Assembly (NCBI GenBank): GCA_021781815.1
Contig: JAJXWB010000004.1
Coordinates: 1 to 64,000, forward strand
Direction of reading: 5' to 3'
DNA length: 64,000 nucleotides
DNA from: Pseudomonadota bacterium
Lineage (GTDB): Bacteria; Pseudomonadota; Alphaproteobacteria; Rhizobiales; Beijerinckiaceae
Shown: in pieces, positions 23,073 to 39,706 of the stretch
How positions within the stretch are numbered: position 1 is the stretch's first letter
How the letters are laid out: every line of letters begins with the position of its first letter
The notes under the pieces: generated by a model
The model's input: the letters and a program-made list of their open reading frames with translations, nothing else
Database searches by the model: none
What the model was told of the DNA's origin: nothing
Program-made: the position numbers and the translations under genes

Positions 23073-24572
23073 TCAATTCATCGTCGGGATGACAAAGCTT
23101 GCGCCATCCTTGACGCCGGACGGCCAGCGTGAGGTGACTGTCTTGGTCTTCGTGTAGAACCGGATCGAATCCGGACCGTGCTGGTTGAGATCGCCGAAGC
23201 CCGAGCGCTTCCAGCCGCCGAACGTGTAATAGGCGATCGGCACCGGGATCGGCACGTTGACGCCGACCATGCCGATCTGACAGCGCGAGGCGAAGTCGCG
23301 CGCCGCATCGCCATCCCTGGTGAAAATCGCGACGCCGTTGCCGTATTCGTGGTCGTTCACGAGCGAGAGCGCCTCTTCATAATTTCCGGCGCGCACGACC
23401 GACAGCACGGGACCGAAGATCTCTTCCTTGTAGATGCGCATGTCCTTGGTCACATTGTCGAACAGACAGCCGCCCATGTAGAAGCCGTTCTCGTAGCCCT
23501 GCATCTTGAAGCCACGGCCGTCGACCACGAGTTTCGCGCCTTCCTTCACGCCGATCGCGACGTAATTCCTGACGCGCTGCAGCGCCTCGGCCGTCACGAG
23601 CGGGCCGAAGTCGGCGGCAAGGTCCGTCGACGGACCGACCTTCAGCGATTCAACACGCGGGATGAGTTTTTCCATCAGGGCTTCGGCAGTGCCCTTGCCG
23701 ACGGGAACGGCGGCCGAGATCGCCATGCAGCGTTCGCCGGCCGAGCCGTAGCCCGCGCCGATCAGCGCATCGGTCACTTGATCCATGTCCGCGTCGGGCA
23801 TGATGACCATGTGGTTCTTGGCGCCGCCGAAGCACTGGACCCGCTTGCCGGCCGCGCAACCGCGCGTGTAGACGTATTCAGCGATCGGCGTGGAGCCGAC
23901 GAAGCCGACGGCCTTCACGTCGCGATCGTCGAGAATGGCGTCGACGGCCTCCTTGTCGCCGTTGACGACGTTGAGAATGCCGGCCGGCAGACCCGCCTCG
24001 ATCATCAGTTCGGCCAGGCGCAGGGGCACGCCGCAGTCGCGCTCCGACGGTTTCAGGATGAAGGCGTTGCCGCAGGCGATGGCCGGGCCGAACTTCCACA
24101 TCGGGATCATCGCCGGGAAGTTGAACGGCGTGATGCCAGCGACTACGCCGAGTGGCTGGCGCATCGAATAGATGTCGATGCCGGGGCCGGCGCCGTCGGT
24201 ATATTCGCCCTTCATCAGGTGCGGGACGCCGCAGGCGAACTCGATGACTTCGACGCCACGCTGGATGTCGCCCTTCGCGTCGGGAATGGTCTTGCCGTGC
24301 TCGCGCGCGAGAAGCTCGGCGAGCGGTTCCATGTCGCGCGCCACGAGGTCGAGAAATTTCATGAGGACGCGCGCGCGCCGCTGCGGATTGGTCGCGCCCC
24401 AGCCGACCTGCGCAGCCCTGGCGTTCTCGATGGCGGCGCGCACCTCGGCCTTCGAGGCGAGCGGCACCTTCGAGATCAGTTCGCCCGTCATGGGCTGGTA
24501 GGCGTCGGCGAAGCGGCCGGACGCGCCCTTGACGTGCTTGCCGCCGATGAAATGCGTGAGTTCCCTGGCCAT
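23073..24572 (-). CDS. mmsA: Methylmalonate-semialdehyde dehydrogenase (CoA-acylating)
   Basis: 499 residues from ATG 24572, where AGGGAGA lies 6 nt upstream; an upstream in-frame extension has no family sequence. It oxidises methylmalonate and malonate semialdehydes with NAD and CoA to propionyl-CoA and acetyl-CoA, in valine, myo-inositol and beta-alanine breakdown. The N-terminus (THFIGGKHVKG), the GVVAGITPFNFPAMIPMW segment, the catalytic Cys in AGERCMAIS and PIPVPIAYYTFGGWK are typical. It lacks the Glu general base of ordinary aldehyde dehydrogenases, as usual for CoA-dependent members. A LysR gene diverges from it. Confidence 0.95.
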   Translation of the reverse strand: MARELTHFIGGKHVKGASGRFADAYQPMTGELISKVPLASKAEVRAAIENARAAQVGWGATNPQRRARVLMKFLDLVARDMEPLAELLAREHGKTIPDAKGDIQRGVEVIEFACGVPHLMKGEYTDGAGPGIDIYSMRQPLGVVAGITPFNFPAMIPMWKFGPAIACGNAFILKPSERDCGVPLRLAELMIEAGLPAGILNVVNGDKEAVDAILDDRDVKAVGFVGSTPIAEYVYTRGCAAGKRVQCFGGAKNHMVIMPDADMDQVTDALIGAGYGSAGERCMAISAAVPVGKGTAEALMEKLIPRVESLKVGPSTDLAADFGPLVTAEALQRVRNYVAIGVKEGAKLVVDGRGFKMQGYENGFYMGGCLFDNVTKDMRIYKEEIFGPVLSVVRAGNYEEALSLVNDHEYGNGVAIFTRDGDAARDFASRCQIGMVGVNVPIPVPIAYYTFGGWKRSGFGDLNQHGPDSIRFYTKTKTVTSRWPSGVKDGASFVIPTMN

Positions 24573-24615
24573 TTTTGTCTCCCTGACCGGCTGTTTCTGG
24601 TCTATGATTTTGCGC

Positions 24616-24632
24616 ATATCAATCTTTGATAT
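24616..24632. promoter_or_regulatory. Inverted repeat between mmsA and LysR, probable operator
   Basis: ATATCAA-TCT-TTGATAT is a perfect 7-bp inverted repeat and contains T-N11-A spacings. It lies in the 89-bp gap between the divergent mmsA (start 24572) and LysR gene (start 24662). That is where a LysR activator of the neighbouring gene would bind. Confidence 0.55.
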
Positions 24633-24661
24633 CGCGCAACCGTTGTGCAGAATTTCGCGCC

Positions 24662-25546
24662 ATGCTTGATTGGGACAATACTCGTGTCTTTCTCGCCGTC
24701 GCCCGCACTGGACAGATGCTGGGTGCCGCCCGCAAGCTCGGACTCGATCATGCGACCGTGAGCCGCAGAATCGCAAATCTGGAGGCTGGCCTCGGCGTCA
24801 AATTGATCGAGCGCCGCACTAGCGGCTGCGTGCTGACGGCCACCGGCGAGACCTTTCTGGCGAGCGCCGAGCGGATCGAGACAGAACTCTTGCGGGCGCA
24901 GGCCGCGTTAACGGGCGCTGACGTCGCCGTGACAGGCAACGTGCGTGTCGGCGCCCCCGACGGTTTCGGCACTTTCGTGCTCGCGAGAAGTTTCGGCGCG
25001 CTGATGGACGAGCATCCCGGCCTCAACGTGCAGCTTGTTCCATTGCCGCGCGCGTTTTCGCTGGCGAAGCGCGAGGCGGACATCGCCGTCACTATCGATC
25101 GTCCGGTCGAGGGCCGGCTGACGGTGCGAAAACTGACGGACTACACGCTGAGCCTCTACGCTTCTTGCGAGTTCTTGACGCAGCATCCGCGGGCTGCAAT
25201 CGAGCCGCAGAATTGCCGCGTCGTCTCCTACGTGCCGGACCTGATCTTCAGCCCGGCGCTCGACTATCTCGGCGAGTTCGGCCTCGCCGGCAGCGCGAAA
25301 TTTGAATGCGCTGGCATGATCGGCCAGATGGAGGCGGTGCGCGCGGGCGCGGGCATCGGCGTGCTGCACGACTATTCCGCGCGCAATTTTCCTGACCTCG
25401 TCCGCATCGCGCCGGAGCGGCGGGTGACGCGATCCTACTGGATCGTCACGCACGACGACGTGAAGGATTTTGCACGAGTCAGGCTGGTGCACGATCATAT
25501 CGTCGCGACGACCGGGCGGCTGGCGCGGGAGTTCGTGCTGAAATGA
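24662..25546 (+). CDS. LysR-family transcriptional regulator (next to mmsA)
   Basis: 294 residues from ATG 24662. The helix-turn-helix is near residues 15-45 (RTGQMLGAARKLGLDHATVSRRI), followed by the linker helix and an effector-binding domain typical of the subgroup with MLDWDNTRVFL starts. Its divergence from mmsA across an 89-bp gap with a perfect inverted repeat suggests that it controls mmsA, as such LysR genes often do. It overlaps the next gene (acetyltransferase) by 4 nt (ATGA). Confidence 0.9.
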   Translation: MLDWDNTRVFLAVARTGQMLGAARKLGLDHATVSRRIANLEAGLGVKLIERRTSGCVLTATGETFLASAERIETELLRAQAALTGADVAVTGNVRVGAPDGFGTFVLARSFGALMDEHPGLNVQLVPLPRAFSLAKREADIAVTIDRPVEGRLTVRKLTDYTLSLYASCEFLTQHPRAAIEPQNCRVVSYVPDLIFSPALDYLGEFGLAGSAKFECAGMIGQMEAVRAGAGIGVLHDYSARNFPDLVRIAPERRVTRSYWIVTHDDVKDFARVRLVHDHIVATTGRLAREFVLK

Positions 25547-26019: not shown

Positions 26020-26973
26020 ATGCCCTCGAAACTCGACCAGCTCAAATCCATGACCACGATCGTCGCAGACACCGGCGACATAGACTCCATCAAGGCCTTC
26101 CATCCGACCGACTGCACCACCAATCCGTCGCTGATCCTCAAGGCGTCGGGCATGCCGCAATACAAGCATCTCGTCGACGAGGCGATCAGGTGGGGGCGTA
26201 GCCACAACGCGGTGTCGAGCGTGGTCACCGATCGTCTTGCGGTCAATTTCGGAACCGAGCTGGCGAAGATCGTGCCAGGCCGCGTCTCGACCGAGGTGGA
26301 CGCCGATTTGTCCTTCGACGCCCGCGCCATGATCGACAAGGGGCGCAGCCTCCTTGCCGCATATAAGGAGCGCGGCGTCGACCGCCAGCGCATCCTCATC
26401 AAGCTGGCGGCGACCTGGGAGGGCGTCGAGGCGGCGCGCGTGCTGCAGAAGGAAGGCGTCGACTGCAACATGACGCTGATGTTCTCGCTCGCCCAGGCCG
26501 CGGCCTGCGCCGACGCCGGAGCCTTTCTGATTTCTCCCTTCGTCGGCCGCATCCTCGATTGGTACAAGGCGCACGAAGGCAAGGAATATACGATCGAGAC
26601 CGATCCCGGCGTGCTGTCGGTTCGGCAGATTTACGCCTATTACAAAGCGCACGGGATCAAGACCATCGTCATGGGCGCGTCGTTCCGCGGCCTCGGCGAG
26701 ATCGAGGCGCTGGCTGGTTGCGACCGGCTGACGATCGCCCCCGATCTGCTCGCAAAACTCGCGGCGGACGAGGGTAGGCTGGAGCGAAAGCTTTCGCCGG
26801 ACAAGCCCGCCGGCGCCCCCGCGAAGATGACTCTCGACGAAAAGACCTTCCGCTGGCTCCTCAACGAAGACAGAATGGCGACGGAGAAGCTCAGCGACGG
26901 CATCCGGATTTTCGCGAGGGATTTGCGCATCCTGCGCGAATTGGTCTCGAAGAAGCTGGAGCAGGCGGCGTAA
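26020..26973 (+). CDS. tal: Transaldolase, classical TalB type
   Basis: 317 residues. It transfers dihydroxyacetone units between sugar phosphates in the non-oxidative pentose phosphate pathway. The Schiff-base Lys128 is in ILIKLAATWEG, Asp17 in VADTGD is the acid/base residue, and TDCTTNPSLIL and the GRISTEVDA-like stretch GRVSTEVDADLSFD are the two family signatures. Length and order match the E. coli TalB group rather than the short TalC group. It begins right after the acetyltransferase stop. Confidence 0.96.
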   Translation: MPSKLDQLKSMTTIVADTGDIDSIKAFHPTDCTTNPSLILKASGMPQYKHLVDEAIRWGRSHNAVSSVVTDRLAVNFGTELAKIVPGRVSTEVDADLSFDARAMIDKGRSLLAAYKERGVDRQRILIKLAATWEGVEAARVLQKEGVDCNMTLMFSLAQAAACADAGAFLISPFVGRILDWYKAHEGKEYTIETDPGVLSVRQIYAYYKAHGIKTIVMGASFRGLGEIEALAGCDRLTIAPDLLAKLAADEGRLERKLSPDKPAGAPAKMTLDEKTFRWLLNEDRMATEKLSDGIRIFARDLRILRELVSKKLEQAA

Positions 26974-27421: not shown

Positions 27422-29104
27422 CTACTTCCCCTGCGCCAGCGCCGCTTCCCTGATCTTCGTCAGCGTCGTCGCCGGCGTGATCGCTTCGGGATCGATTTTC
27501 ACGTGCAGGATCGCGGGTTTTCCGCTCGCCAGCGCGCGCTCGAAGGCCGGCATGAAGTCGTCCGTCGTCAAGACCGTCTCGCCATGCCCGCCGAAGGCGC
27601 GGGCGTAGGCGGCAAAATCCGGGTTCTTCAACGCCGTGCCGATGGGGCGGTTCGGATATTCGCGTTCCTGATGCATGCGGATCGTGCCGTACATGCCGTT
27701 GTCGACAACGACGAAGACGATGCCCAGGGCATATTGCACGGCGGTGGCGAATTCCTGCCCGTTCATCAGGAAGCAGCCGTCGCCGGCGAACGACACGACG
27801 GTCTTGTCCGGATGCAGACGCTTGGCGCCGATCGCCGCCGGAACGCCATAGCCCATCGAACCCGACGTCGTCGCAAGCTGCCCGCCGAATTTTGGAATGC
27901 GCAGGAAGCGGCCGACGAAGGTGTTGTAATTGCCGGCGCCCGACGTGACGATGAAATCATCGCCCAGTCTTTCACGCAATTGCGTCAGCGCCTCGCCGAA
28001 CTGCATCGCGCCGGGGATTTGCGGCGCCTTTTCTGTCCACACGACATAGTCGCCATGCGACGCGGCGCCCGCGCCGGCCCAGCCGACAGCATTCGGCGGC
28101 TGCACGCTTTCGAGTTGCGCGCAAAAAGCCTGTGGCGTCGCGTTGATGGCGAGCGTCGGGTGATAGACGCGCCCCAGTTCGGCGGTGTCGGCATGCACGT
28201 GCACGAATGTCTGACGCGGAAGGGGAATGTCGAACAGCGTGTAGGATTGCGACGGCATTTCCGCCATGCGCCCGCCGACGAGCAGCACGAGATCGGCGCT
28301 TTCGATGCGCGCTTTAAGTTTTGGATTGGGGCCGATGCCGATCTCACCCGCGTAATTGGCGTCGGCATTCGGAAACAGCATGGCGCGGCGGAACGAGGTC
28401 GCGACCGGCAGATCGAACCGTTCGGCGAAGCGCACGAAGGACTCGACGGCCTTCGCACTCCAGCCGGAGCCGCCGAGAATCGCGACTGGCGCTTTCGCGG
28501 CCCAGAGGAGCTTCTGCAATTCGGCCATTTGCGGCAGGCCGGGCCATGTCGGCGCGGGCTCCACGCGCACCGCGTCGGCGGCCTGCGCGGTCTCGACCAG
28601 CATGTCCTCGGGCAATGCGATCACGACTGGGCCGGGGCGCCCCTGCATGGCGACATGGAAGGCGCGCGAAACGAATTCGGGAATGCGCGCGGGATCGTCG
28701 ATCTCGCACACCCATTTGGCGGTCGAGCCGAAGAAGGCCTTGAAGTCCATTTCCTGGAACGCGCCGCGGCTCCGCATCGAGCGTTCGATCTGGCCGACGA
28801 ACAGGATCAGCGGTGTCGAATCGTGTTCGGCGATGTGGATGGCGTGCGCCGCGTTGGTCGCGCCCGGCCCGCGCGTGACGAAGGCGATTCCGGGCCGCCC
28901 GGTGAGACGCGCGATCGCTTCCGCCGCGAGCGCGGCGCCCGTCTCCTGCCGGCACACCGTCACCTGCACCGACGAATCATGCAGCGCGTCGAGCACGGCG
29001 AGATAGGATTCGCCGGGCACGCAGAACACGTGCTGCACACCCTGAATGGCGAGCTGGTCGACGAGGATCTGCCCGCCTGTGCGCAGAGAGTTGGATTGCG
29101 TCAT
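27422..29104 (-). CDS. ThDP-dependent enzyme, acetolactate-synthase-like
   Basis: 560 residues. The three-domain ThDP decarboxylase/synthase layout is complete: the catalytic Glu54 in CRQETGAALAAEA, RGPGATNAAHAI, GRPGPVVIALPEDML, and the ThDP/Mg motif GDGCFLMNGQE ending at VVDNGMYGT. It resembles the acetolactate synthase large subunit, but no IlvH regulatory subunit is near. It overlaps by 4 nt a CaiB-type CoA-transferase gene (upstream on this strand). So an acyl-CoA or 2-keto acid/2-hydroxyacyl-CoA lyase-type reaction is conceivable. The true substrate is unknown. It lacks the oxalyl-CoA decarboxylase N-terminus. Confidence 0.85.
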   Translation of the reverse strand: MTQSNSLRTGGQILVDQLAIQGVQHVFCVPGESYLAVLDALHDSSVQVTVCRQETGAALAAEAIARLTGRPGIAFVTRGPGATNAAHAIHIAEHDSTPLILFVGQIERSMRSRGAFQEMDFKAFFGSTAKWVCEIDDPARIPEFVSRAFHVAMQGRPGPVVIALPEDMLVETAQAADAVRVEPAPTWPGLPQMAELQKLLWAAKAPVAILGGSGWSAKAVESFVRFAERFDLPVATSFRRAMLFPNADANYAGEIGIGPNPKLKARIESADLVLLVGGRMAEMPSQSYTLFDIPLPRQTFVHVHADTAELGRVYHPTLAINATPQAFCAQLESVQPPNAVGWAGAGAASHGDYVVWTEKAPQIPGAMQFGEALTQLRERLGDDFIVTSGAGNYNTFVGRFLRIPKFGGQLATTSGSMGYGVPAAIGAKRLHPDKTVVSFAGDGCFLMNGQEFATAVQYALGIVFVVVDNGMYGTIRMHQEREYPNRPIGTALKNPDFAAYARAFGGHGETVLTTDDFMPAFERALASGKPAILHVKIDPEAITPATTLTKIREAALAQGK

Positions 29105-30282
29105 TTACCGCCGCCCCACGCCGGGTCGGCGAGCACTTCCGCATTATGTTCGCCGAGTGCGGGCGCGTGGCGCGGCGAGGCGGCGGGCTTGCCGTCGATC
29201 ATGATCGCCGAACGGATGCCGGGCGTCGACCCGCCCCTGGCTCTTGGATTGGGACGGTCGATCCGCATGCCCCGGTGGATCACCTGCGGGTCGGCGAATA
29301 CATCCGGGATCGTGTTGATCGGCCCGGCCGGCACGCCGATGGCGTCCAGTTTGGGCAACAATTCCGCGCGTGAAAATTGCGAGGTCATCGCGTTCAGCTT
29401 CTCGTCCATCGCCTTGCGATTGATGGCGCGCGACGGCATTTCGGCGAAGCGCGGATCGTCCGCCATCTCGGGCGCGCCGAGCGCGGTCACGAGCTTTCTG
29501 AACTGGCCGTTATTGGCGGTGGCGATGATGATGTCGCCGTCAGATACCTTGTACACGTCGTAAGGCGTGACGTTCGGATGCGCATTGCCCATCCGCTTGC
29601 CGGCCGCGCCGCCGACAAAATAATTCAGCGCCTGGAAGCCGAGCACGGCCGTCACGCTGTCGATCAGCGCGCAATCGATATAGGCGCCCTCGCCGGTCTT
29701 CTGCCGACGGATCAGCGCCGCCTGAATGGCGTTCGACGCATACAAGCCCGTAAAAATGTCGACGATGGAGATGCCGACCTTGGTTGGCGGTCCGTCGGGC
29801 TGGCCGGTGACGTGCATGATGCCCCCCATGCCCTGCAGCAGGAAGTCGTAGCCCGCGCGCGGCGCATAGGGGCCGGTCTGGCCGAATCCGGTGATAGAGC
29901 AATAGATGATGTCGGGTTTCACTTTTTTCAGGCCTTCGTAGTCGAGCCCGAATTTCGAGAGGCCGCCGACCTTGAAGTTCTCGATCACGACATCGGCGTT
30001 GGCCGCCAGACGCCGCACCAGGGCGCGGCCCTCTTCCGTGTCGAAATCGCCCTCGATGCAGCGCTTGCCGCGATTGCAGCCATAGAAATAGGCCGCTCCC
30101 AGTTTTTCTCCGTCTTCGCTTTCGACGAAAGGCGGGCCCCATTGCCTGGTGTCGTCGCCCTCGCGCGCGCGCTCGACTTTCACGACGTCGGCGCCGAGAT
30201 CAGCGAGCAATTGCCCGGCCCAGGGGCCGGCGAGAATGCGGGCAAGTTCGAGGACGCGAATGCCGGAAAGTGGTTCAGTCAT
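29101..30282 (-). CDS. CaiB/BaiF family CoA-transferase
   Basis: 393 residues from ATG 30282 (MTEPLSGIRV); upstream in-frame ATGs add unrelated residues. It is a class III CoA-transferase moving CoA between carboxylic acids. The catalytic Asp146 is in APRAGYDFLLQ, with the N-terminal GIRVLELARILAGPWAGQLLADLGADVVKVE and CSITGFGQTGP segments as family marks. Its stop overlaps the start of the ThDP enzyme (ATGA), so the pair is translated together. The acyl donor and acceptor are unknown. Confidence 0.9.
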   Translation of the reverse strand: MTEPLSGIRVLELARILAGPWAGQLLADLGADVVKVERAREGDDTRQWGPPFVESEDGEKLGAAYFYGCNRGKRCIEGDFDTEEGRALVRRLAANADVVIENFKVGGLSKFGLDYEGLKKVKPDIIYCSITGFGQTGPYAPRAGYDFLLQGMGGIMHVTGQPDGPPTKVGISIVDIFTGLYASNAIQAALIRRQKTGEGAYIDCALIDSVTAVLGFQALNYFVGGAAGKRMGNAHPNVTPYDVYKVSDGDIIIATANNGQFRKLVTALGAPEMADDPRFAEMPSRAINRKAMDEKLNAMTSQFSRAELLPKLDAIGVPAGPINTIPDVFADPQVIHRGMRIDRPNPRARGGSTPGIRSAIMIDGKPAASPRHAPALGEHNAEVLADPAWGGGK

Positions 30283-30347
30283 GGGCGCTGGAAGTCCGAT
30301 CGTTGAGACCCGGAAGCGGGGCGCGCAGTCTAGCGCATTCTGACCAC

Positions 30348-30363
30348 GGGAAACCAGTTTCCC
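30348..30363. promoter_or_regulatory. Inverted repeat upstream of the CoA-transferase
   Basis: GGGAAAC-CA-GTTTCCC is a perfect 7-bp inverted repeat 66-81 bp upstream of the CoA-transferase start, within the 174-bp gap 30283-30456. Two GGCGCGCAG copies (one near 30320, one near 30367) flank it. It looks like an operator for the CoA-transferase/ThDP pair, but no regulator is adjacent. Confidence 0.4.
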
Positions 30364-30456
30364 ATGAGGCGCGCAGGGCTTGACCGCCATCGTGGTCCAC
30401 CGTGCGGCCTCGTTCGGGTTCGCCGCAGGTCGGCCGGCGCACCCGCGTTCCCGCGT

Positions 30457-31089
30457 CTACTCTGCATCCGCTTGCCGTTCCGGCGCGGCGGCCTGGAAGG
30501 CCGGCAGATCTTTGCAGGCCGCCTCCGTCGTCAATAGTCGCGGGAATGCCGAGACATCGACGCCGAAACGACGCGCGTTGCCAAGCTGCGGCACAAGACA
30601 GATATCAGCGAGCGTCGGCGCCTGGCCGAAGCAGAATGGACCGGGTTCGCTGGCGATCAGCCTCTCGCATGCCGCCAGCCCTTCCGCATTCGCCCATTTC
30701 GCCCAGCCTGTCACATCTTCCTCGGCGACCCCGAGATCGGTCAGTTTGCGCAGCACCCTGAGATTCTGGACGGGATGGATGTCGCAGGCGATGGCGTAGG
30801 CGAAGGCGCGCACGCGCGCGCGCTGGAACGCGTCCTGCGGCAGCAGCGGCGGCGTCGGGCGTGTCTCGTCGAGCCATTCGATGATGGCGAGCGACTGGGT
30901 CAGCGTTCCGCCGTCATCGGTTTCCAGGGTCGGCACGAGACCCTGCGGGTTGAGGCTGAGATAGGCGGGCGCGCGCTGTTCCTGCCTGCGCAGGTGGTGC
31001 GACACGTGCCCGGCCGAAAGCCCCTTGAGATTGAGCGCGATGCGAACGCGATAGGCGGCTGAGCTACGAAAATACCCGTGAAGGCGCAT
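30457..31089 (-). CDS. nagL: Maleylpyruvate isomerase, glutathione-dependent (zeta GST)
   Basis: 210 residues from ATG 31089. The N-terminal thioredoxin-fold active site is SSAAYRVRIALNLKGL, followed by NPQGLVPTLE and LTQSLAIIEWLDE, typical of zeta-class glutathione transferases. This group includes maleylacetoacetate isomerase (MaiA) and maleylpyruvate isomerase (NagL). I favour NagL because gentisate dioxygenase and a fumarylpyruvate-hydrolase-like gene are nearby and no homogentisate gene is. It converts maleylpyruvate to fumarylpyruvate with glutathione. It is divergent from the fumarylpyruvate hydrolase gene. Confidence 0.85.
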   Translation of the reverse strand: MRLHGYFRSSAAYRVRIALNLKGLSAGHVSHHLRRQEQRAPAYLSLNPQGLVPTLETDDGGTLTQSLAIIEWLDETRPTPPLLPQDAFQRARVRAFAYAIACDIHPVQNLRVLRKLTDLGVAEEDVTGWAKWANAEGLAACERLIASEPGPFCFGQAPTLADICLVPQLGNARRFGVDVSAFPRLLTTEAACKDLPAFQAAAPERQADAE

Positions 31090-31188
31090 TCTTTCCCTCG
31101 TCCTGTCCGCAATCCGCCTGGCGGCTACGCGGTTCCGTGACGGCCAGCATGGCGACGCGCCGCCGCCAGTCAATGCATGAAGCGCGAA

Positions 31189-31217
31189 ATTGACAGCAAT
31201 CTGATATTCAGTACAGT
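31189..31217 (+). promoter_or_regulatory. Promoter/operator of the fumarylpyruvate hydrolase-ABC operon
   Basis: TTGACA at 31190-31195 is followed after 16 nt by TACAGT (31212-31217). CTGA-TAT-TCAG (31201-31211) is an inverted repeat between them. The 17-nt block starting at 31189 (ATTGACAGCAATCTGAT) matches 13 of 17 positions of the minus-strand block before the hydroxylase gene (39465-39481). So it is probably the regulated promoter of the island. It lies about 100 bp upstream of the ATG at 31319. Confidence 0.55.
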
Positions 31218-31318
31218 GAGCAATAATGAAAACCAGAAGGGGGGATGATGCCGTTCGCGCTTTTGCCGCGAGGCGCTATGCTTGCCCGCCCTCGCTCACA
31301 GGCCGAAGAGAGAGCTGC

Positions 31319-32014
31319 ATGAACTACGTGGTCGCGCCGCCCGCCATCGCTTCGATCGCCGTCGCCGACGGAGATGATCGCTTTCCCGTCCGCCGCGTCA
31401 TCTGCGTCGGTCGGAATTACGAGGCGCATGCGCGCGAGATGGGCAAGGACCCGGCGCGCGAGCCGCCGTTCTTCTTCACCAAGCCTGCCGACGCCATCGT
31501 GCCGGATGGAACGGCCGTTCCCTATCCGCCCGAGACAAGGAACTTCCACTACGAGATTGAACTCGTCGTCGCGATCGGCAGGGATGGGTTTGAGATCCCG
31601 GAAGACAGGGCGCTGGATCACGTCTTCGGTTATGCCGTCGGCATCGATCTGACGCGCCGCGACCTGCAATTGGCCGCGCGTGATCTCGGCCGTCCCTGGG
31701 ACTGGGGCAAGGCCTTCGACAATTCAGCGCCGATATCGCCGTTGCGGCCGGCTGCAGCCATTGGCCACCCCGCCAGCGGTCGGATCTGGCTGTCGGTCAA
31801 CGGCGTCGTGAAGCAGGACGCCGATATCGCCGATCTCATCTGGAGCGTGCCGGAGATCGTCGCCGTCGCGTCTCGGTCCATCCGGTTGAAGGCTGGCGAC
31901 GTCATCATGACCGGCACGCCCGCCGGCGTCGGGCCGATCGTCGTCGGCGACAGGGTCGAGGGCGGGATCGACGGGATCGGTCGGATCGCGATCACGATCG
32001 CGCCAGCGGCCTGA
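31319..32014 (+). CDS. nagK: Fumarylpyruvate hydrolase (FAH family)
   Basis: 231 residues from ATG 31319 (GAGAG 7 nt upstream); the upstream in-frame extension to 31226 has no family sequence. The FAH fold signature is clear: ICVGRNYEAHAREMG, PFFFTKPADAIVP, the metal-binding HYEIELVVAIG (Glu-x-Glu), and TRRDLQ, KAFDNSAPI, TGTPAGVGPI. In the gentisate pathway this enzyme splits fumarylpyruvate to fumarate and pyruvate. It heads the operon with the ABC importer genes and diverges from nagL. Confidence 0.88.
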   Translation: MNYVVAPPAIASIAVADGDDRFPVRRVICVGRNYEAHAREMGKDPAREPPFFFTKPADAIVPDGTAVPYPPETRNFHYEIELVVAIGRDGFEIPEDRALDHVFGYAVGIDLTRRDLQLAARDLGRPWDWGKAFDNSAPISPLRPAAAIGHPASGRIWLSVNGVVKQDADIADLIWSVPEIVAVASRSIRLKAGDVIMTGTPAGVGPIVVGDRVEGGIDGIGRIAITIAPAA

Positions 32015-32065
32015 AAAAGCGCGCGCCGCACGAATGGCGCGCGCAACACCAAGGGGAGGAACACC

Positions 32066-33241
32066 ATGCGTCACGTTCTTGCGCCGGTTTTCGCGCTCGG
32101 TCTGCTGTCCGGCGCAGCCTTCGGCGCCGAGCCGGTCAGAATCGGTTTCCTGTCGACGTTTTCGGGGCCCTCGGGCCAGCTCGGTCAGGAACTGCTCGAC
32201 GGCTTCAATCTCGCGCTCGACCAGAACGGGCGCGCCATCGGCGGGCGTCCCGTGGAGTTGATTCAGGGCGACGATCAGGCCAAGCCCGACGTCGGCCGTC
32301 AGGTCGCTGAAAAGATGGTCGAGCAGGACAAGGCGCAGATCCTCACCGGCGTCAACTTCTCCAACGTCATGCTCGCCGTCGCCAGGCCCGTGCTCGATGC
32401 CGGCGCCTTCATTGTCTCGTCCAACGCGGGCGCCTCGCAATTTGCGGGCGCGCAGTGCAATCCGCACTTCTTCGCCGCCTCGTTCCAGAATGACACGGCG
32501 TCGGAGGCGATGGGCCTCTATCTCCAGAACAAGGGCGTGAAGAAGATATACCTGCTCGCGCCGAATTACCCGGCCGGCAAGGATTTCCTTGCGGGCTTCA
32601 AGCGCGCCTACAAGGGCCAGATCGTCGGCGAGGTGTACACGACCTTCGGGCAGCTCGATTACGCCGCCGAGATCGCGCAGGTGCGCGCGGCCAATCCGGA
32701 CGGGGTCTATTTTTTCTATCCCGGCGGCATGGGCGTCAATTTCGTCAAACAGTACGATCAGGCCGGACTGAAGAAGACGATCCCGCTCTACGGCCCGTCT
32801 TTCTCGCTCGACCAGACGGTGCTGCCGGCGATCGGCGATGCGGCGGTAGGGGCCTATGCCTCGGCCTTCTGGGCGGAGACGTTCGACAATCCCCAGAGCA
32901 AGAAATTCGTCGCGGATTTCGAGGCGAAATATCACCGCATTCCCTCACCCAACGCCGCCGTCGCCTTCGACACCGCGCGCCTGCTCGACGCCGCCGCCAG
33001 GAGCATCGGCGGCAGGATCGAGGACAAGCCGGCGTTTCAGAAGGCGCTGGAGAACGTGAAATTCGAGTCGCTGCGCGGCAATTTCCGGTTCAACACGAAT
33101 CACTATCCGATCCAGGATTTCTATCTGACGGAGATCGTGAAGGATGCTCAGGGTCGTCCCGTGATGGCGGTGCGCGAAAAGATCGACAGCGATCATAAGG
33201 ACGCCTATGTCGGCCAGTGCAAGATGCCGCCCGCGAACTGA
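32066..33241 (+). CDS. ABC transporter substrate-binding protein, branched-chain type
   Basis: 391 residues with a cleavable signal peptide (MRHVLAPVFALGLLSGAAFGA, cut near residue 20). The periplasmic two-lobed LivK-like fold starts with VRIGFLSTFSGPSGQLGQE, then NRGAFIVSSNAGASQFAG-like residues around 110-125. The family binds branched-chain amino acids or aromatic acids. Its position between fumarylpyruvate hydrolase and the permease genes makes an aromatic acid (3-hydroxybenzoate or gentisate) the likeliest ligand. This is inference from context. Confidence 0.88.
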   Translation: MRHVLAPVFALGLLSGAAFGAEPVRIGFLSTFSGPSGQLGQELLDGFNLALDQNGRAIGGRPVELIQGDDQAKPDVGRQVAEKMVEQDKAQILTGVNFSNVMLAVARPVLDAGAFIVSSNAGASQFAGAQCNPHFFAASFQNDTASEAMGLYLQNKGVKKIYLLAPNYPAGKDFLAGFKRAYKGQIVGEVYTTFGQLDYAAEIAQVRAANPDGVYFFYPGGMGVNFVKQYDQAGLKKTIPLYGPSFSLDQTVLPAIGDAAVGAYASAFWAETFDNPQSKKFVADFEAKYHRIPSPNAAVAFDTARLLDAAARSIGGRIEDKPAFQKALENVKFESLRGNFRFNTNHYPIQDFYLTEIVKDAQGRPVMAVREKIDSDHKDAYVGQCKMPPAN

Positions 33242-33259
33242 CGCCCGGATGGATCGCGG

Positions 33260-34132
33260 ATGACCCCGTCGCTGCTGATCGAACAGACGCTCAACGGCGT
33301 GCAGTTCGGGATCATGCTGTTCCTGATGTCGGCAGGCCTGACGCTCGTGTTCGGCATCATGAACTTCATCAATCTTGCGCACGGCTCGCTTTACATGATC
33401 GGCGCCTTCGCCGGCGCGGCGACCCAGGCGGCGACCGGCAGCTTCGCTCTGGCGATCGTCGCCGCGCCCATTGCCGCCGCGCTCGCCGGCCTTGTGCTTG
33501 AAAGCGCGCTGCTGAGACGCTTCTATGGACGCGATCATCTCGATCAGGTGCTCGTCACCTTCGGAACCATCCTGGCGCTGAACGAGGCTACACGTATTCT
33601 GTTCGGACTGACGCCGCTGCGCATGGACCTGCCGTCGGCGCTGGCGGGCCATGTCGAGATCATCCCCGGCGCGCCATATCCTACGTTTCGTCTCGCCATT
33701 CTCGCCGTCGGCCTGCTGGTTGCGGCGTCGTTGTATGTCATCATCATGCGCACGCGCCTTGGAATGTGGGTGCGCGCTGGCGCCAGCGACCGTCAGATCG
33801 CCTCCGCCATGGGCGTCAACGTTCCGCTCGTGTTTGCGGCCCTGTTCGCGACCGGGGCGGCGCTCGCCGGACTTGCCGGCGTCATGGCCGCTCCGATTCT
33901 GTCGGTCCAGGTCGGCATGGGCGAGCCGATCCTCATCCTCGCGCTCGTCGTCACCGTCATCGGCGGCATAGGATCGATTCGCGGCGCCTTCGTTGCGGCG
34001 CTACTGGTCGGCGTCGTCGACACCTTCGCCCGTGTGCTGCTGACGCCGGCGCTCGGCGGTATGGCCATCTTCATGACCATGGCGGCCATACTCGCGTTTC
34101 GGCCGAAGGGCCTGTTCCCCGCTCATGGCTGA
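33260..34132 (+). CDS. ABC transporter permease, LivH type
   Basis: 290 residues with about eight hydrophobic helices. GVQFGIMLFLMSAGLTLVFGIMNFINLAHGSLYMIGA is the LivH N-terminal signature, and the cytoplasmic coupling segment is near ASDRQIASAMGVNV. It forms the inner-membrane channel with the LivM-like product, whose gene overlaps it by 8 nt. Confidence 0.9.
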   Translation: MTPSLLIEQTLNGVQFGIMLFLMSAGLTLVFGIMNFINLAHGSLYMIGAFAGAATQAATGSFALAIVAAPIAAALAGLVLESALLRRFYGRDHLDQVLVTFGTILALNEATRILFGLTPLRMDLPSALAGHVEIIPGAPYPTFRLAILAVGLLVAASLYVIIMRTRLGMWVRAGASDRQIASAMGVNVPLVFAALFATGAALAGLAGVMAAPILSVQVGMGEPILILALVVTVIGGIGSIRGAFVAALLVGVVDTFARVLLTPALGGMAIFMTMAAILAFRPKGLFPAHG

Positions 34133-35141
34133 CAATCCGCCTCATCCCGTACGCTGGCGCGATGCGCTTCCTCCCGCGATCCTGATCGCGACGCTGGCCG
34201 CGACCCCTCTGGTTGCGACCGCGATCGGCGATCCCTTCCTCGTCAAGGTTGCGACGCGCGTCGTCATTTTCTCCATCGCTGCGGTCGCTCTCAATTTTGT
34301 TCTGGGCTTCGGCGGTCTGGTCAGCCTCTGTCACGCCGGCCTGTTCGGCGTCGGCGGCTATGTCGTCGGCGTTCTCGCCTGGCACGATTTCAACGCCGAG
34401 CCGGTCTGGATATTCCATGGCACGTCCAATCTCGCCATTTCGCTGCCGCTGGCGGCGATGACGTCCGGCCTGGCTGCGGCGGCCGTCGGCGCGATCTCCT
34501 TGCGCACGAGCGGGCCGTATTTCCTGATGATCACGCTCGCCTTCAACCAGATGCTCTATTACGGCGCGATCGCGCTGCAGAAATACGGCGGCGAGGATGG
34601 ACTGCAGATCATGAGCGATGTCTCGCTTGGGCCGTTCGACGTCTCCAACCGTTACCGCTTCTTCTATCTCGCGCTGGTCGTCCTCTCGGCGACGTTGCTG
34701 TTGACCGGCCGCTTCGTGCGGAGCCGGTTCGGCGTGGCGTTGCGCGCCGCCGCGCAGAACGAGACGCGCGCGATTGCGGTCGGGATCGATCCATGGGTTT
34801 ATCGCCTCGTCGCCTTTGTCATTTCGGGCGCGCTCGTCGGCGTCGCCGGCGCGCTGCTGGCGGCGGGACAGCAGTTTGTCTCGCCCGTGGACATGAGCTG
34901 GGATCGCTCCGGAGATCTGGTCGTCATGGCGGTGCTCGGCGGCATCGGCGTCGTCTGGGGGCCGGCGCTCGGCGCGGCAGTGTTCATTGTCCTCGAACTC
35001 GTGCTGTCGTCATGGACCTCGCACTGGCAACTCGCCTTCGGCCTGCTCGTCGTGCTGATCGTCGTCACGCTACGCGGCGGGCTGGCCGATCTCGGTCGCG
35101 CATTAGCCGGCGCCCGGCGCATGGAGGCGGCCCGTGGCTGA
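34125..35141 (+). CDS. ABC transporter permease, LivM type
   Basis: 338 residues, about nine or ten helices. ALNFVLGFGGLVSLCHAGLFGVGGYVVGVL is the LivM signature, and the coupling loop is AAAQNETRAIAVGIDPWVYRLVAFVISGALVG. It pairs with the LivH-like permease. It overlaps the upstream permease gene and the downstream ATPase gene by 8 nt each, so all are one translation-coupled unit. Confidence 0.9.
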   Translation: MADNPPHPVRWRDALPPAILIATLAATPLVATAIGDPFLVKVATRVVIFSIAAVALNFVLGFGGLVSLCHAGLFGVGGYVVGVLAWHDFNAEPVWIFHGTSNLAISLPLAAMTSGLAAAAVGAISLRTSGPYFLMITLAFNQMLYYGAIALQKYGGEDGLQIMSDVSLGPFDVSNRYRFFYLALVVLSATLLLTGRFVRSRFGVALRAAAQNETRAIAVGIDPWVYRLVAFVISGALVGVAGALLAAGQQFVSPVDMSWDRSGDLVVMAVLGGIGVVWGPALGAAVFIVLELVLSSWTSHWQLAFGLLVVLIVVTLRGGLADLGRALAGARRMEAARG

Positions 35142-35877
35142 CGCTATCCTCCAGGTGGAATGCCTGATGAAGAGCTTTGGCGGCCTGCGCGCGACCAACG
35201 ACCTGTCGATGAATGTCGAGCGTGGCGAATGCCATGCGATCATCGGTCCGAACGGCGCTGGCAAGACGACATTCATCGCGCAATTGCAGGGCATGCTGCG
35301 GCCGGATGCGGGCGTGATCCGGCTCGAAGGCCGCGACATCGCCGGCGAACCGGCGCACCGGCGCGCGCGCATGGGGATTGCGCGTTCATTCCAGATCACC
35401 TCCCTCGTACCGAATTTCACGGCGCTAGATCACGCTGCGCTCGCGGTGCAGGCGCGATCCGGCCATTCCTTCCGCTTCTGGCGCGCTGCCCGCCGCGATG
35501 CGAGGCTCCTCGATCCGGCGCGCGAGGCCATCGAAACGGTCGGCCTCGGCGCAAGAGCCGACACGCAGGCGCGCGATCTCTCGCATGGCGAGGCGCGTCA
35601 ACTCGAACTCGCCATCGCAATCGCGCAGCGCCCCAAGCTGCTGCTCCTCGACGAGCCGATGGCCGGCATGGGGCGCAAGGACGGCGCAGCCATGACGCGA
35701 TTGCTGGCGCAACTGAAACGGACCTATTCCATGATCCTGATCGAGCATGACATGCAGGCCGTCTTCTCGCTCGCCGACCGGATCAGCGTGCTGGTTGCGG
35801 GCCATATCATCAGGACCGGCGCCCCGGCGGAAATCCGCGCCGATCCGGAGGTCCGCGCCGCCTATCTCGGACATTGA
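35134..35877 (+). CDS. ABC transporter ATPase, LivG type
   Basis: 247 residues from GTG 35134. Walker A is GPNGAGKT near residue 43, the Q loop follows in RSFQITSLVPNF, the signature motif is the variant LSHGEARQLELAIA (usually LSGGQ/LSYGE), and Walker B is KLLLLDEPMAG with the switch His in LIEHDM. It is one of the two nucleotide-binding subunits of the importer. Confidence 0.92.
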   Translation: MADAILQVECLMKSFGGLRATNDLSMNVERGECHAIIGPNGAGKTTFIAQLQGMLRPDAGVIRLEGRDIAGEPAHRRARMGIARSFQITSLVPNFTALDHAALAVQARSGHSFRFWRAARRDARLLDPAREAIETVGLGARADTQARDLSHGEARQLELAIAIAQRPKLLLLDEPMAGMGRKDGAAMTRLLAQLKRTYSMILIEHDMQAVFSLADRISVLVAGHIIRTGAPAEIRADPEVRAAYLGH

Positions 35878-35883
35878 GGTCGC

Positions 35884-36588
35884 ATGTTGCTCGATGTTCG
35901 AGGGCTCGAAGCAGGGTATGGACCGAGCAAGGTTCTGTTCGGTCTTGACCTTGTGATTGCAGAAGGCGAAGTCGTGACGCTTCTCGGCCGCAACGGCATG
36001 GGCAAATCCACGACCGTCAAGTGCCTGTCGGGGCTGCTGCGGCCGACCGCGGGGGAAATCCTGTTCAAGGGCGCGCGCATCGATCGGGCGCCGCCGCACG
36101 TCATCGCGCATGGCGGCCTGGGCCTCGTGCCGGAGGGCCGCCATATCTTCGCCAATCTGACGGTGCGCGAGAACCTGTTGATGGCGGCCATCCGGCGCGG
36201 GGATCGCAAGGATCCCTGGACATTCGAGCGCGTGCTCGATTTCTTTCCGCGCCTCGCCGAACGGCTGGGCAATGGCGGCGCCCAGTTGTCGGGCGGGGAG
36301 CAGCAGATGCTGGCCATCGGTCGCGCACTGATGACCAACCCCGATCTGCTTGTGCTGGATGAGGCGACCGAGGGGCTTGCGCCGCTCATCCGCCAGCAAA
36401 TCTGGCGGAAACTCGAAGCGCTCAAGGCTATGGGGTTGGCCATGATCGTGATCGACAAGGAACTCGACGCGCTGTTGGGCCTGGCGGATCGTCACTACGT
36501 CATCGAGAAGGGCGAGATCGTCTGGCGCGGCGACAGCGCCGCGCTCGATGCGGACAAGACGGCGCAGGACGCTTATCTCGGGGTTTAG
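35884..36588 (+). CDS. ABC transporter ATPase, LivF type
   Basis: 234 residues. Walker A is GRNGMGKST near residue 38, the Q loop RHIFANLTVRENLLMA, the signature LSGGEQQMLAIGRAL, and Walker B LLVLDEATEGLAP. A conserved Lys replaces the switch His (VIDKEL, where LivF proteins often have E-Q/H). It completes the five-component importer and is followed after 29 bp by the MarR gene. Confidence 0.92.
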   Translation: MLLDVRGLEAGYGPSKVLFGLDLVIAEGEVVTLLGRNGMGKSTTVKCLSGLLRPTAGEILFKGARIDRAPPHVIAHGGLGLVPEGRHIFANLTVRENLLMAAIRRGDRKDPWTFERVLDFFPRLAERLGNGGAQLSGGEQQMLAIGRALMTNPDLLVLDEATEGLAPLIRQQIWRKLEALKAMGLAMIVIDKELDALLGLADRHYVIEKGEIVWRGDSAALDADKTAQDAYLGV

Positions 36589-36617
36589 CTCCGTTTGAAC
36601 GAAAGCATTTGAACGCC

Positions 36618-37088
36618 ATGAAGACCCGCAATGATTTTCATCTCATGCCCGGCCACCTCGTCCGGCGCGCGCACCAGATCTCCGTGGCGATCTTCATGGA
36701 GGAATGCGCCGCGCAGAACGTGACGCCGGTGCAATACGCCTGCCTCTCGGCGATTGCCCGCCAGCCTGGCGTCGATGCGACACGACTTGCTGCGACCGTC
36801 GCCTTCGATCGCTCGACGCTCGGCAATGTTCTGGAGCGGCTGGAGGCCAAGGGCTGGGTGCGCCGCGATCCATCGCCGGAGGACAGGCGCATCAAGCTCG
36901 TATACATCACCGAGGCCGGGGAGGCCTTGCTCGATGCGATCGAACCGGCCGTGCTCACCACCCAAAAACGATTGTTGAAGCCGCTGGCGCCTGCCGACCG
37001 CAAGACCTTCATGCGGCTGTTGACCGAGATGGTGGATGGCAACAACGAGATATCGCGCGCGCCGCTCTCGCGCGCGATCGGGGATTAG
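36618..37088 (+). CDS. MarR-family transcriptional regulator
   Basis: 156 residues from ATG 36618; a TTG at 36609 would add three. The winged helix-turn-helix is around residues 45-100 (QYACLSAIARQPGVDATRLAATVAFDRSTLGNVLERLEAKGWVRR, the wing SPEDRRIKLVYIT). MarR proteins usually repress genes for aromatic-acid breakdown and release DNA when the substrate or its CoA ester binds. At the end of the importer operon it is the natural candidate regulator of both gentisate transcripts. Confidence 0.9.
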   Translation: MKTRNDFHLMPGHLVRRAHQISVAIFMEECAAQNVTPVQYACLSAIARQPGVDATRLAATVAFDRSTLGNVLERLEAKGWVRRDPSPEDRRIKLVYITEAGEALLDAIEPAVLTTQKRLLKPLAPADRKTFMRLLTEMVDGNNEISRAPLSRAIGD

Positions 37089-37125
37089 ATTTCACTCATC
37101 GTCACGCCAGCCGCGATCGCGCGGT

Positions 37126-38169: not shown

Positions 38170-38215
38170 GACGTTCCTCCTTGGTGGGGACTTCGCGAAG
38201 TATGGCTTCCCCTGG

Positions 38216-39412: not shown

Positions 39413-39464
39413 GCCGTCCTCCCCGGATGCATCTTGTCGATATTGCCGGCGACAAGGCCATATA

Positions 39465-39485
39465 ATCTGTATACTGTCAATCAGT
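39465..39485 (-). promoter_or_regulatory. Promoter/operator of hydroxylase-dioxygenase genes
   Basis: On the minus strand ATTGACAGTATACAGAT (39481 to 39465) agrees at 13 of 17 positions with the block before fumarylpyruvate hydrolase. It includes TTGACA as a -35 candidate. ACTG-TCAAT-CAGT (39473-39485) is an inverted repeat. It lies 53-69 bp upstream of the hydroxylase start. A good -10 element at the right distance is not obvious. The rest of the 294-bp gap 39413-39706 shows nothing else except the divL ribosome site. Confidence 0.5.
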
Positions 39486-39706
39486 GTGCTTTTGATCTCC
39501 GGATTTGACGCCATGGGACGCGGGCGGGCGCCATCCCAAAACGGATCTCCGTGCGGAGAGGTCTTCCGCATTAACCACTTTCTCAGAAGGATGAGCTAAG
39601 GCTACATTGCAATGATTCGGGCAGTGTGGCGGACGCTGCCGATCAGGAGGCGCGACGCGGTCGGCTTTGCCGCCGGCGCCGTTTTGCGCCTCGGAGGGGA
39701 TGGCGA

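Follow-up and report, generated by a model that had tools for sequence, protein, structure and literature searches.

The window, by which we mean the whole 64,000-nucleotide stretch of contig JAJXWB010000004.1 (Beijerinckiaceae) that was analysed, carries a pair of minus-strand genes for a ThDP-dependent enzyme and a class III CoA-transferase. A preliminary description of this DNA had reported that they overlap by 4 nt, and both open reading frames and the overlap are indeed where it had placed them. Gene calls were mechanical; the longest ORF of the CoA-transferase begins at 30390 and stops at 29101, and the ATG at 30282 was taken as its start because the family and structure matches begin at residue 1–5 from there. 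The genes, their features and two synteny markers are as follows:

27422..29104, minus strand: ThDP-dependent enzyme of the NCBIfam PRK08199 subfamily, 560 aa (NF006052 score, clade)
29101..30282, minus strand: class III (CaiB/BaiF) CoA-transferase, 393 aa (PF02515)
29101..29104, minus strand: ATGA, the 4-nt overlap of the ThDP and CoA-transferase genes
30348..30363, no strand: palindrome GGGAAAC-CA-GTTTCCC, about 66 bp upstream of the CoA-transferase ATG (30282)
26020..26973, plus strand: transaldolase, a synteny marker outside the pathway (TIGR00874, 461.8 bits)
23073..24776, minus strand: CoA-acylating methylmalonate-semialdehyde dehydrogenase, start codon uncertain, a synteny marker outside the pathway (TIGR01722, 649.9 bits)

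The ATGA overlap probably couples translation of the two genes, both of which have low dN/dS and look to be under purifying selection. The neighbours of the ThDP gene are the CoA-transferase gene and a Lumazine_bd_2 gene, with no regulatory subunit among them, and the sole aldehyde dehydrogenase seen near the pair is that of the methylmalonate-semialdehyde type. The latter has counterparts, 73–85% identical, in an equivalent place in loci L041, L045, L086, L093, L096 and L126, in all of which a transaldolase homologue lies 3' of the ThDP gene. The region upstream of the pair is now a 3-hydroxybenzoate/gentisate-type cluster; a link of the pair to these adjoining genes was rejected, since the 6 kb upstream of the CoA-transferase in G005, the nearest relative bearing the pair, gave no GST, FAH or transporter match. 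The palindrome noted in the preliminary description does exist, and is the sole site in the window even when 3 mismatches are allowed (expected number, 0.17), but among 190 loci it occurs in 4, each a copy of the window stretch, and so is not conserved; nothing marks it as an operator, and the idea of a conserved operator was rejected.

With 850.9 bits against a cut-off of 539 for NF006052, the ThDP enzyme is a member of PRK08199, an NCBIfam family carrying no function, and Pfam finds TPP_enzyme N, M and C domains in it. Its nearest large group of sequence relatives is acetolactate (acetohydroxyacid) synthase, which is also among the nearest in fold. The next best model, TIGR00118 acetolactate synthase, scored 309.9 (cut-off 538.35), and the enzyme lay far under the cut-off of every acetolactate synthase model listed. 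Comparison of its predicted structure (pLDDT 90.6) yielded near-ties that do not separate families, with Z of 37.7–41.1 over 50 listed entries that span acetolactate synthases, hydroxy-keto acid synthases, carboligases, lyases and decarboxylases. In a tree built with 58 PRK08199 rows, picked by us from 128 available ThDP sequences with linked loci favoured, a branch with an SH-aLRT of 99 parts those 58 rows from IlvB, IlvI, the own-genome IlvB-like protein, PoxB, Gcl and E. coli Oxc, the reference branches being long and the order among the references unsure. (The references are these six, with no 2-hydroxyacyl-CoA lyase among them; two own-genome rows with doubtful translations, own_C28 and own_C46b, were left out of it and of the residue comparison.) The enzyme groups with neither the known acetolactate synthases nor E. 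coli Oxc, so that its separation from both, as first proposed, is borne out by NCBIfam scores and, long branches allowed for, by phylogeny. An ordinary acetolactate synthase was rejected on the model scores and the separate clade, and the setting differs too, with the gene beside a CoA-transferase and a Lumazine_bd_2 gene and no regulatory subunit. Six residues do not vary across the 58 PRK08199 rows: E32, R78, R113, W215, R239 and H478. The window protein keeps them all; at H478 two of the six references, IlvI among them, have Trp.

The CoA-transferase matches PF02515 (CoA_transf_3) over its full length with 416.6 bits (cut-off 23.3), which places it in class III, and it has in common with 4ed9 and 9br7 the Asp of GYDFLLQ, which we take to be catalytic. 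Its best NCBIfam model, SucGlutTfsCaiB (NF052585), gave 537.6 bits, under the cut-off of 750, and we file the protein as like a succinate-glutarate CoA-transferase, short of membership. That cut-off is passed by the ThDP-adjacent CoA-transferases of Rhizobium (L074, 793.6) and Agrobacterium (L161, 805.7); the homologue in G001, linked to a glutaryl-CoA dehydrogenase, scores 536.6 and stays under it. E. coli Frc reaches 191.7 on the same model, and by these scores the window protein is closest to the succinate-glutarate type and not to formyl-CoA transferase. SUGCT, the succinate-hydroxymethylglutarate CoA-transferase of PDB 9br7 (presumably the human protein), is likewise of class III and aligned over residues 3–385 (1.3e-96), but is eukaryotic and, to our knowledge, without a ThDP partner. 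The earlier suggestion that the CoA-transferase activates an acid is probably right.

The pairing extends well beyond the window's genome, and a pair confined to that genome was rejected. The CoA-transferase adjoins the ThDP gene in 14 of the 30 genomes that carry it (the window's own included), and does so in rhizobia as well. In 29 of the 112 loci that were ORF-called and yielded a ThDP gene, a CoA-transferase gene sits directly upstream on that gene's strand; the exact 4-nt overlap recurs in 12 of those 29 pairs, window included. The pairing is beyond chance. In seven related genomes (G009, G015, G016, G017, G020, G022 and G034) the pair forms the end of an operon in the order piperidine-6-carboxylate dehydrogenase, glutaryl-CoA-dehydrogenase-like acyl-CoA dehydrogenase, CoA-transferase, ThDP enzyme. 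The first of these was above its cut-off in all seven, and the second was named from resemblance and position, the scanned G016 protein scoring 221.6, under 470, on the single NCBIfam glutaryl-CoA dehydrogenase model matched.

Other relatives arrange these genes differently. The Acidovorax order is LysR, piperidine-6-carboxylate dehydrogenase, FAD oxidoreductase, binding protein, aminotransferase and ThDP enzyme (the binding protein was scanned, the rest named from their resemblance to proteins scanned in other loci), while in Alcaligenaceae the ThDP gene is followed by a glutaryl-CoA-dehydrogenase-like gene (7 loci), and in Azospirillum and Microvirga it adjoins the piperidine-6-carboxylate dehydrogenase gene. 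G308 has a saccharopine-dehydrogenase-family gene, the ThDP gene and piperidine-6-carboxylate dehydrogenase beside an Lrp-type regulator, and the ThDP gene of L065, L067, L070 and L075 has as its immediate neighbour an aldehyde dehydrogenase distinct from piperidine-6-carboxylate dehydrogenase. Among the best 80 of at least 597 matches, piperidine-6-carboxylate dehydrogenase lay within 8 kb of the ThDP gene in 17, glutaryl-CoA dehydrogenase in 12, either of them in 26, and either or the CoA-transferase in 41; in 32 of these 80 none of six linked genes was within 8 kb. The linkage may be overstated for PRK08199 as a family, because the query alignment was built mostly of linked ThDP proteins. 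Genes were counted when their identity to single reference proteins, taken mostly from L047, passed set thresholds, and the relatives set (L036–L068) and the named set (L085–L164) share at least two contigs, L036 apparently being L085 and L050 being L129. In the accessible part of PMC6667623, the gcdR-gcdH-gcoT cluster of P. putida, one of the closest known systems, likewise brings together genes for a LysR regulator, a glutaryl-CoA dehydrogenase and a CoA-transferase for glutarate, but as described there it has neither a ThDP gene nor a piperidine-6-carboxylate dehydrogenase.

Across 348 sampled genomes of the phylum, in searches scoring about four candidates at most in each, ThDP relatives at E <= 1e-150 occurred in 97. 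The ThDP gene was within 10 kb of 7 of 91 piperidine-6-carboxylate dehydrogenase places, where simple arithmetic gives about 0.2 expected, and the two tended to occur in the same genomes (47 carry both; Fisher p 5.6e-10, kinship ignored). A known alternative for 2-oxoadipate is HglS (PF07063), an Fe(II) dioxygenase/decarboxylase that, according to the accessible part of PMC7286885, yields 2-hydroxyglutarate. It belongs to another protein family than the ThDP enzyme, acts on the substrate proposed for the latter, and can have its gene near piperidine-6-carboxylate dehydrogenase. We counted as HglS the full-length PF07063 matches of 47 genomes and left out the shorter matches of 32 (79 of 348 in all). 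Full-length HglS lay within 10 kb of 14 of the 91 places, and none had both HglS and the ThDP gene. Piperidine-6-carboxylate dehydrogenase was present in 85 genomes, of which 32 had the ThDP enzyme without full-length HglS (three of them, G243, G307 and G311, with a shorter PF07063 match) and 23 had neither at these thresholds; 50 genomes had the ThDP enzyme without piperidine-6-carboxylate dehydrogenase. In G186, G195 and G243 a shorter match is less than 4 kb from that dehydrogenase. Genome-wide mutual exclusion was not upheld: the ThDP enzyme (>=53% identity) and HglS occur together in 13 genomes and are near neighbours in G247, and hence are not simple substitutes.

We put a probability of about 0.58 on the reading that the two genes make up the distal half of a lysine (2-aminoadipate) breakdown operon running via free glutarate, in which the ThDP enzyme would decarboxylate 2-oxoadipate without FAD and the CoA-transferase would activate glutarate. 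The sequences establish which families the genes belong to, how they are linked, the separate clade and the conserved residues; all substrates and reactions that follow are inferences. L-Piperidine-6-carboxylate dehydrogenase would form 2-aminoadipate, and a transaminase 2-oxoadipate; the ThDP enzyme, probably without FAD, would convert this to glutarate semialdehyde (5-oxopentanoate) and CO2; an aldehyde dehydrogenase, possibly piperidine-6-carboxylate dehydrogenase itself, would give glutarate; the class III CoA-transferase would pass CoA from succinyl-CoA to glutarate; and glutaryl-CoA dehydrogenase would turn the resulting glutaryl-CoA into crotonyl-CoA. The steps from 2-oxoadipate to glutaryl-CoA would stand in place of the 2-oxoadipate (2-oxoglutarate) dehydrogenase complex and of HglS. 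2-Oxoadipate is proposed because its conversion to glutarate is the step missing between the flanking genes; as the neighbourhoods set the ThDP enzyme after the formation of 2-aminoadipate and ahead of the activation of glutarate, its action most likely precedes that of the CoA-transferase, on a free 2-oxo acid. In favour of this reading are the full operons and the other linked arrangements, the phylum-wide association with piperidine-6-carboxylate dehydrogenase, the Rhizobium and Agrobacterium CoA-transferases that pass the succinate-glutarate cut-off, the family-invariant residues, and the further aldehyde dehydrogenases that adjoin the ThDP gene in four loci. Against it are the partners not found in the window's genome, the sub-cut-off scores of the G016 dehydrogenase and of the window and G001 CoA-transferases, the loci and genomes in which the linked genes are absent, and the joint occurrence of the ThDP enzyme and HglS.

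The preliminary description had the reverse order, in which the thioester of an acid, once formed by the CoA-transferase, would be cleaved or built upon by the ThDP enzyme as an acyl-CoA lyase or carboligase in the manner of oxalate breakdown. The tight coupling of the two genes agrees with this, as do the 2-hydroxyacyl-CoA lyases, which have the same fold at 24–26% identity in the alignment; ThDP enzyme and class III CoA-transferase genes adjoin in E. coli oxc/frc as well. The gene neighbourhoods of relatives point instead to action on a free 2-oxo acid ahead of the CoA-transferase step, and the ThDP gene is often linked to lysine/glutarate genes with no CoA-transferase nearby (Acidovorax, Azospirillum, Microvirga, Alcaligenaceae). 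E. coli Oxc falls outside the PRK08199 clade, on long branches, and the CoA-transferase is glutarate-like and not oxalate-like, on which two grounds the oxalate system was rejected, and we consider action on a thioester very improbable. Hardly better placed is an AruI-like decarboxylation of lysine-derived 6-amino-2-oxohexanoate to 5-aminopentanal. AruI decarboxylates an arginine-derived 2-oxo acid, the model PRK07524 (5-guanidino-2-oxopentanoate decarboxylase) is among those related to the ThDP enzyme, and the neighbours are lysine genes. That model scored 233.6 bits, far under its cut-off of 500, piperidine-6-carboxylate dehydrogenase and the glutarate genes favour the 2-aminoadipate branch, and the invariant extra Arg and His would be better suited to binding a distal carboxylate group than an amino group.

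Somewhat less improbable is a pyruvate-oxidase-like 2-oxoadipate oxidase that would use FAD, with a quinone or O2 as acceptor, to yield glutarate in one step, all else being as proposed. The neighbourhoods would be identical, the fold is common to the FAD enzymes of the ThDP group, and the stretch from piperidine-6-carboxylate dehydrogenase to the ThDP gene gave no call for a second aldehyde dehydrogenase in any of the seven full operons. At position 283, however, all five references other than Oxc (IlvB, IlvI, the own-genome IlvB-like protein, PoxB and Gcl, which we take to be FAD enzymes) have an Arg, presumably the second Arg of the flavin-site motif GxRFxxR, which is missing in 58 of 58 PRK08199 rows, where position 215 is Trp; the family thus lacks that mark of the FAD-dependent pyruvate oxidase type, and the best pyruvate oxidase model listed gave 229.7 bits against a cut-off of 742. 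A more serious, if still doubtful, possibility is that in the window's genus the pair is repurposed or a relic, serving another 2-oxo dicarboxylate or sending glutaryl-CoA into a route without glutaryl-CoA dehydrogenase. Piperidine-6-carboxylate dehydrogenase was not found in the window's genome at E <= 1e-150, nor was a close glutaryl-CoA dehydrogenase (the best of 24 acyl-CoA dehydrogenase matches is 33% identical), so that at the thresholds used the genome lacks the two dehydrogenases of the full operon; HglS gave no match at 1e-20, and CsiD was not found. Neither dehydrogenase was found in G000 or G005. The absence of a close gcdH also sets this genome apart from the P. putida cluster, as far as the accessible part of PMC6667623 describes it. 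The gentisate-type cluster now upstream and the low dN/dS of both genes fit such a change of use. Against it, no active-site change was seen, the six family-invariant residues being kept, and G001 and G003 of the genus have a glutaryl-CoA dehydrogenase match. G001 has it together with the CoA-transferase and without a ThDP match at 1e-100, a combination that speaks against the preferred reading. With 2-oxoadipate decarboxylation as the preferred reading, the window pair would be a retained half-operon, since the partners for the first and last steps were not found and the genes nevertheless look to be under purifying selection.

Searches of the literature on PRK08199, oxoadipate/ketoadipate decarboxylase, lysine–2-oxoadipate–aminoadipate–glutarate and glutarate CoA-transferase/SUGCT returned no account of the ThDP enzyme, although subscription journals may be missing from them, and it is not described in the accessible parts of PMC9007349, PMC7286885, PMC12543098, PMC6265302, PMC6667623 and PMC4334477. 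It is a speculative extension, and an unlikely one as a whole, that PRK08199 is a dedicated 2-oxoadipate decarboxylase family, a third exit for 2-oxoadipate beside the dehydrogenase complex and HglS, which in the window's genus was kept with the CoA-transferase when glutaryl-CoA dehydrogenase was lost and now supplies glutaryl-CoA to some use not yet described. On the preferred reading by itself, a large family without function gains a testable one. If the ThDP enzyme does decarboxylate 2-oxoadipate, this would explain how 2-oxoadipate could become glutaryl-CoA in many bacteria that have piperidine-6-carboxylate dehydrogenase and no HglS, would mend a resemblance that points to acetolactate synthase, and would offer a simple route, through one protein, to glutarate semialdehyde and to glutarate, a polymer building block.

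The overlapping ThDP enzyme and CoA-transferase genes recognised in the preliminary description are present as two minus-strand open reading frames sharing 4 nt, as is the palindrome upstream of them, though among the loci compared the latter is restricted to the window's genome:

29101-30282, minus strand, class III CoA-transferase (ORF and domain search)
27422-29104, minus strand, three-domain ThDP enzyme, downstream of the CoA-transferase gene (ORF and domain search)
30348-30363, palindrome, upstream of the pair

The ThDP enzyme matched NCBIfam PRK08199, labelled just 'thiamine pyrophosphate protein', with 850.9 bits (cut-off 539), and acetolactate synthase models reached at most 309.9 bits, far below their respective cut-offs. 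Its structure was predicted confidently, the closest folds being nearly tied among many ThDP families. For the CoA-transferase the top NCBIfam model was succinate-glutarate (537.6 bits, below the cut-off of 750), followed by mesaconate (303.8), CoA:oxalate (255.3) and formyl-CoA (214.7), and its best solved relatives were 4ed9, a CaiB/BaiF protein, and 9br7, a succinate-hydroxymethylglutarate CoA-transferase. In Rhizobium and Agrobacterium the CoA-transferase linked to the ThDP gene exceeds the succinate-glutarate cut-off (793.6 and 805.7, respectively); the CoA-transferases of genome G001 (536.6, glutaryl-CoA-dehydrogenase-linked) and loci L047 (589.7) and L042 (601.7) fall below it, and all three, with that of the window, are much nearer this model than formyl-CoA transferase. 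By its scores the window protein is like the succinate-glutarate family, and we do not count it as a member.

A co-occurrence survey established that the pair is not limited to the window's genome. The ThDP enzyme occurs in 30 of 41 genomes (E <= 1e-100), the window's own (G000) included, and a CoA-transferase gene directly adjoins it in 14 of the 30 (G000, G002, G005, G007, G009, G012, G015, G016, G017, G018, G020, G022, G023 and G034). ORF calling gave a ThDP gene in 112 loci; in 29 of them, including those of Mesorhizobium, Aminobacter, Rhizobium, Agrobacterium and Asticcacaulis, the CoA-transferase gene comes directly before it in the same orientation, and 12 of these 29 pairs overlap by exactly 4 nt.

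In seven relatives two further genes precede the pair. The first exceeds the cut-off (730) for L-piperidine-6-carboxylate dehydrogenase, the ALDH7-type enzyme producing 2-aminoadipate, in all seven; the second encodes an acyl-CoA dehydrogenase, here called glutaryl-CoA dehydrogenase from its resemblance and its position beside a glutarate-type CoA-transferase, its score (221.6 bits) being under the cut-off (470) of the NCBIfam glutaryl-CoA dehydrogenase model it matches. Upstream lies a LysR gene, often with a DAO-family FAD oxidoreductase (PF01266). The gcdR-gcdH-gcoT cluster of P. putida (PMC6667623) follows the same logic. Independent arrangements point in the same direction: in Acidovorax, LysR, piperidine-6-carboxylate dehydrogenase, FAD oxidoreductase, amino-acid binding protein (itself scanned), aminotransferase (class assigned through cluster members in Bradyrhizobium and Rhizobium) and ThDP enzyme; in seven Alcaligenaceae loci, the ThDP gene and then a glutaryl-CoA-dehydrogenase-like gene, with no CoA-transferase match in those loci; in Azospirillum and Microvirga, piperidine-6-carboxylate dehydrogenase adjoining the ThDP gene; and in genome G308, a saccharopine-dehydrogenase-family gene, the ThDP gene and, next to a regulator of Lrp/AsnC type, piperidine-6-carboxylate dehydrogenase (823.1 bits). 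In locus L039 a dapB-like gene (7830-8636; 4-hydroxy-tetrahydrodipicolinate reductase model, 167.5 bits, over cut-off) sits between the CoA-transferase and the glutaryl-CoA-dehydrogenase-like gene. Six Bradyrhizobium loci (L098, L099, L102, L103, L105 and L107) have a DadA-like gene (by eye) after the ThDP gene, with a class I aminotransferase ahead of it in L103 and L107, which suggests a D-amino-acid variant of the route.

Within 8 kb in the 80 named loci, piperidine-6-carboxylate dehydrogenase was found in 17, glutaryl-CoA dehydrogenase in 12, either of these in 26, CoA-transferase in 20, either dehydrogenase or CoA-transferase in 41, and at least one of six linked genes in 48 (none in 32); because these are the best 80 loci from a search, seeded with an alignment built mostly from linked proteins, that gave at least 597 matches, the linked share is possibly too high for the family.

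The start of the operon would yield 2-aminoadipate and its end would consume glutaryl-CoA. A transaminase would convert 2-aminoadipate to 2-oxoadipate and the CoA-transferase would form glutaryl-CoA from glutarate, leaving a gap, 2-oxoadipate to glutarate, and one member without an assigned role, the ThDP enzyme. The most economical chemistry would be simple decarboxylation to glutarate semialdehyde, which an aldehyde dehydrogenase would oxidise to glutarate. Best supported (probability about 0.58) is the reading in which the ThDP enzyme would be a 2-oxoadipate decarboxylase supplying a glutarate CoA-transferase, and the earlier proposal, in which the CoA-transferase activates an acid and the ThDP enzyme acts as a lyase on the thioester, is judged unlikely beside it. 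The literature searched held no description of a ThDP-type 2-oxoadipate decarboxylase feeding a glutarate CoA-transferase. In loci L065, L067, L070 and L075 the ThDP gene has a different aldehyde dehydrogenase gene as its immediate neighbour. The PRK08199 members of these four loci are 37-60% identical to the window protein, and the pair in L070 is surrounded by binding proteins of tripartite tricarboxylate transporters and an alpha-hydroxy acid oxidase; several 2-oxo acids may fall within the range of the family.

The aligned family retains E54, which we take to be the catalytic Glu, and E32, R78, R113, W215, R239 and H478 occur in 58/58 rows. R239 is shared with PoxB; R78, R113 and H478 are unlike all six references (IlvB, IlvI, the window genome's own IlvB-like protein, PoxB, Gcl and Oxc), IlvI and the IlvB-like protein having Trp at the H478 position, and these three residues could bind the distal carboxylate. 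In the column of position 283, all five non-Oxc references have an Arg, presumably with a flavin role, that is in no family row (n = 58); its absence throughout suggests that the family does not bind FAD.

The known enzyme for 2-oxoadipate is HglS (2-oxoadipate dioxygenase/decarboxylase, PF07063; PMC7286885). Across 348 genomes of the phylum, the ThDP enzyme (E <= 1e-150) occurs in 97, piperidine-6-carboxylate dehydrogenase in 85, and the two co-occur in 47 (Fisher p 5.6e-10, kinship ignored). Within 10 kb of the 91 piperidine-6-carboxylate dehydrogenase places, the ThDP gene lies at seven against about 0.2 expected (47 genomes, 20 kb of an assumed ~4.6 Mb), full-length HglS at 14, shorter PF07063 matches being excluded, and both together at none. 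Neither enzyme is present in 23 of the 85 dehydrogenase genomes, 50 genomes have the ThDP enzyme and not the dehydrogenase, and some carry HglS and the ThDP enzyme together. These absences and cases of coexistence break the simple picture, so the evidence is for a common substrate rather than strict replacement. In genome G247 the two candidate 2-oxoadipate enzymes are near neighbours on one strand (locus L165, 8360-12763): HglS (538 bits) and a ThDP gene resembling PRK08199 (49% identical), with a LysR gene in between.

As for the window's own organism, the nearest named relative by ThDP protein, among the matches listed, is a Rhodoblastus MAG (88%). Downstream of the pair, transaldolase and methylmalonate-semialdehyde dehydrogenase are placed as they are in L041, L045 and L086, which carry the full operon, so the locus seems to have kept its ancestral place. 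Upstream, where the piperidine-6-carboxylate and glutaryl-CoA dehydrogenases would stand, there is another cluster:

30457-39571, 3-hydroxybenzoate/gentisate-type catabolic cluster, with the following members
3-hydroxybenzoate 6-monooxygenase (NF006021, 691.5 bits, over cut-off)
maleylacetoacetate-isomerase-type GST (TIGR01262, over cut-off)
FAA hydrolase (domain search)
37126-38325, ORF, cupin-like and similar to gentisate dioxygenase (by eye)
branched-chain-type ABC transporter genes and a MarR-like gene (by eye)

Elsewhere in the window's genome neither piperidine-6-carboxylate dehydrogenase (1e-150) nor glutaryl-CoA dehydrogenase (best acyl-CoA dehydrogenase 33%) was found, and G005, which has the pair, has neither at the thresholds used; within the same genus, G001 and G003 do show a match to glutaryl-CoA dehydrogenase. 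The pair is conserved between G000 and G005 (ThDP gene, dN 0.074 and dS 0.684; CoA-transferase gene, dN 0.030 and dS 0.632). From this conservation despite the missing dehydrogenases, we conclude that the window's pair either works with other partners or is retained for some other route.
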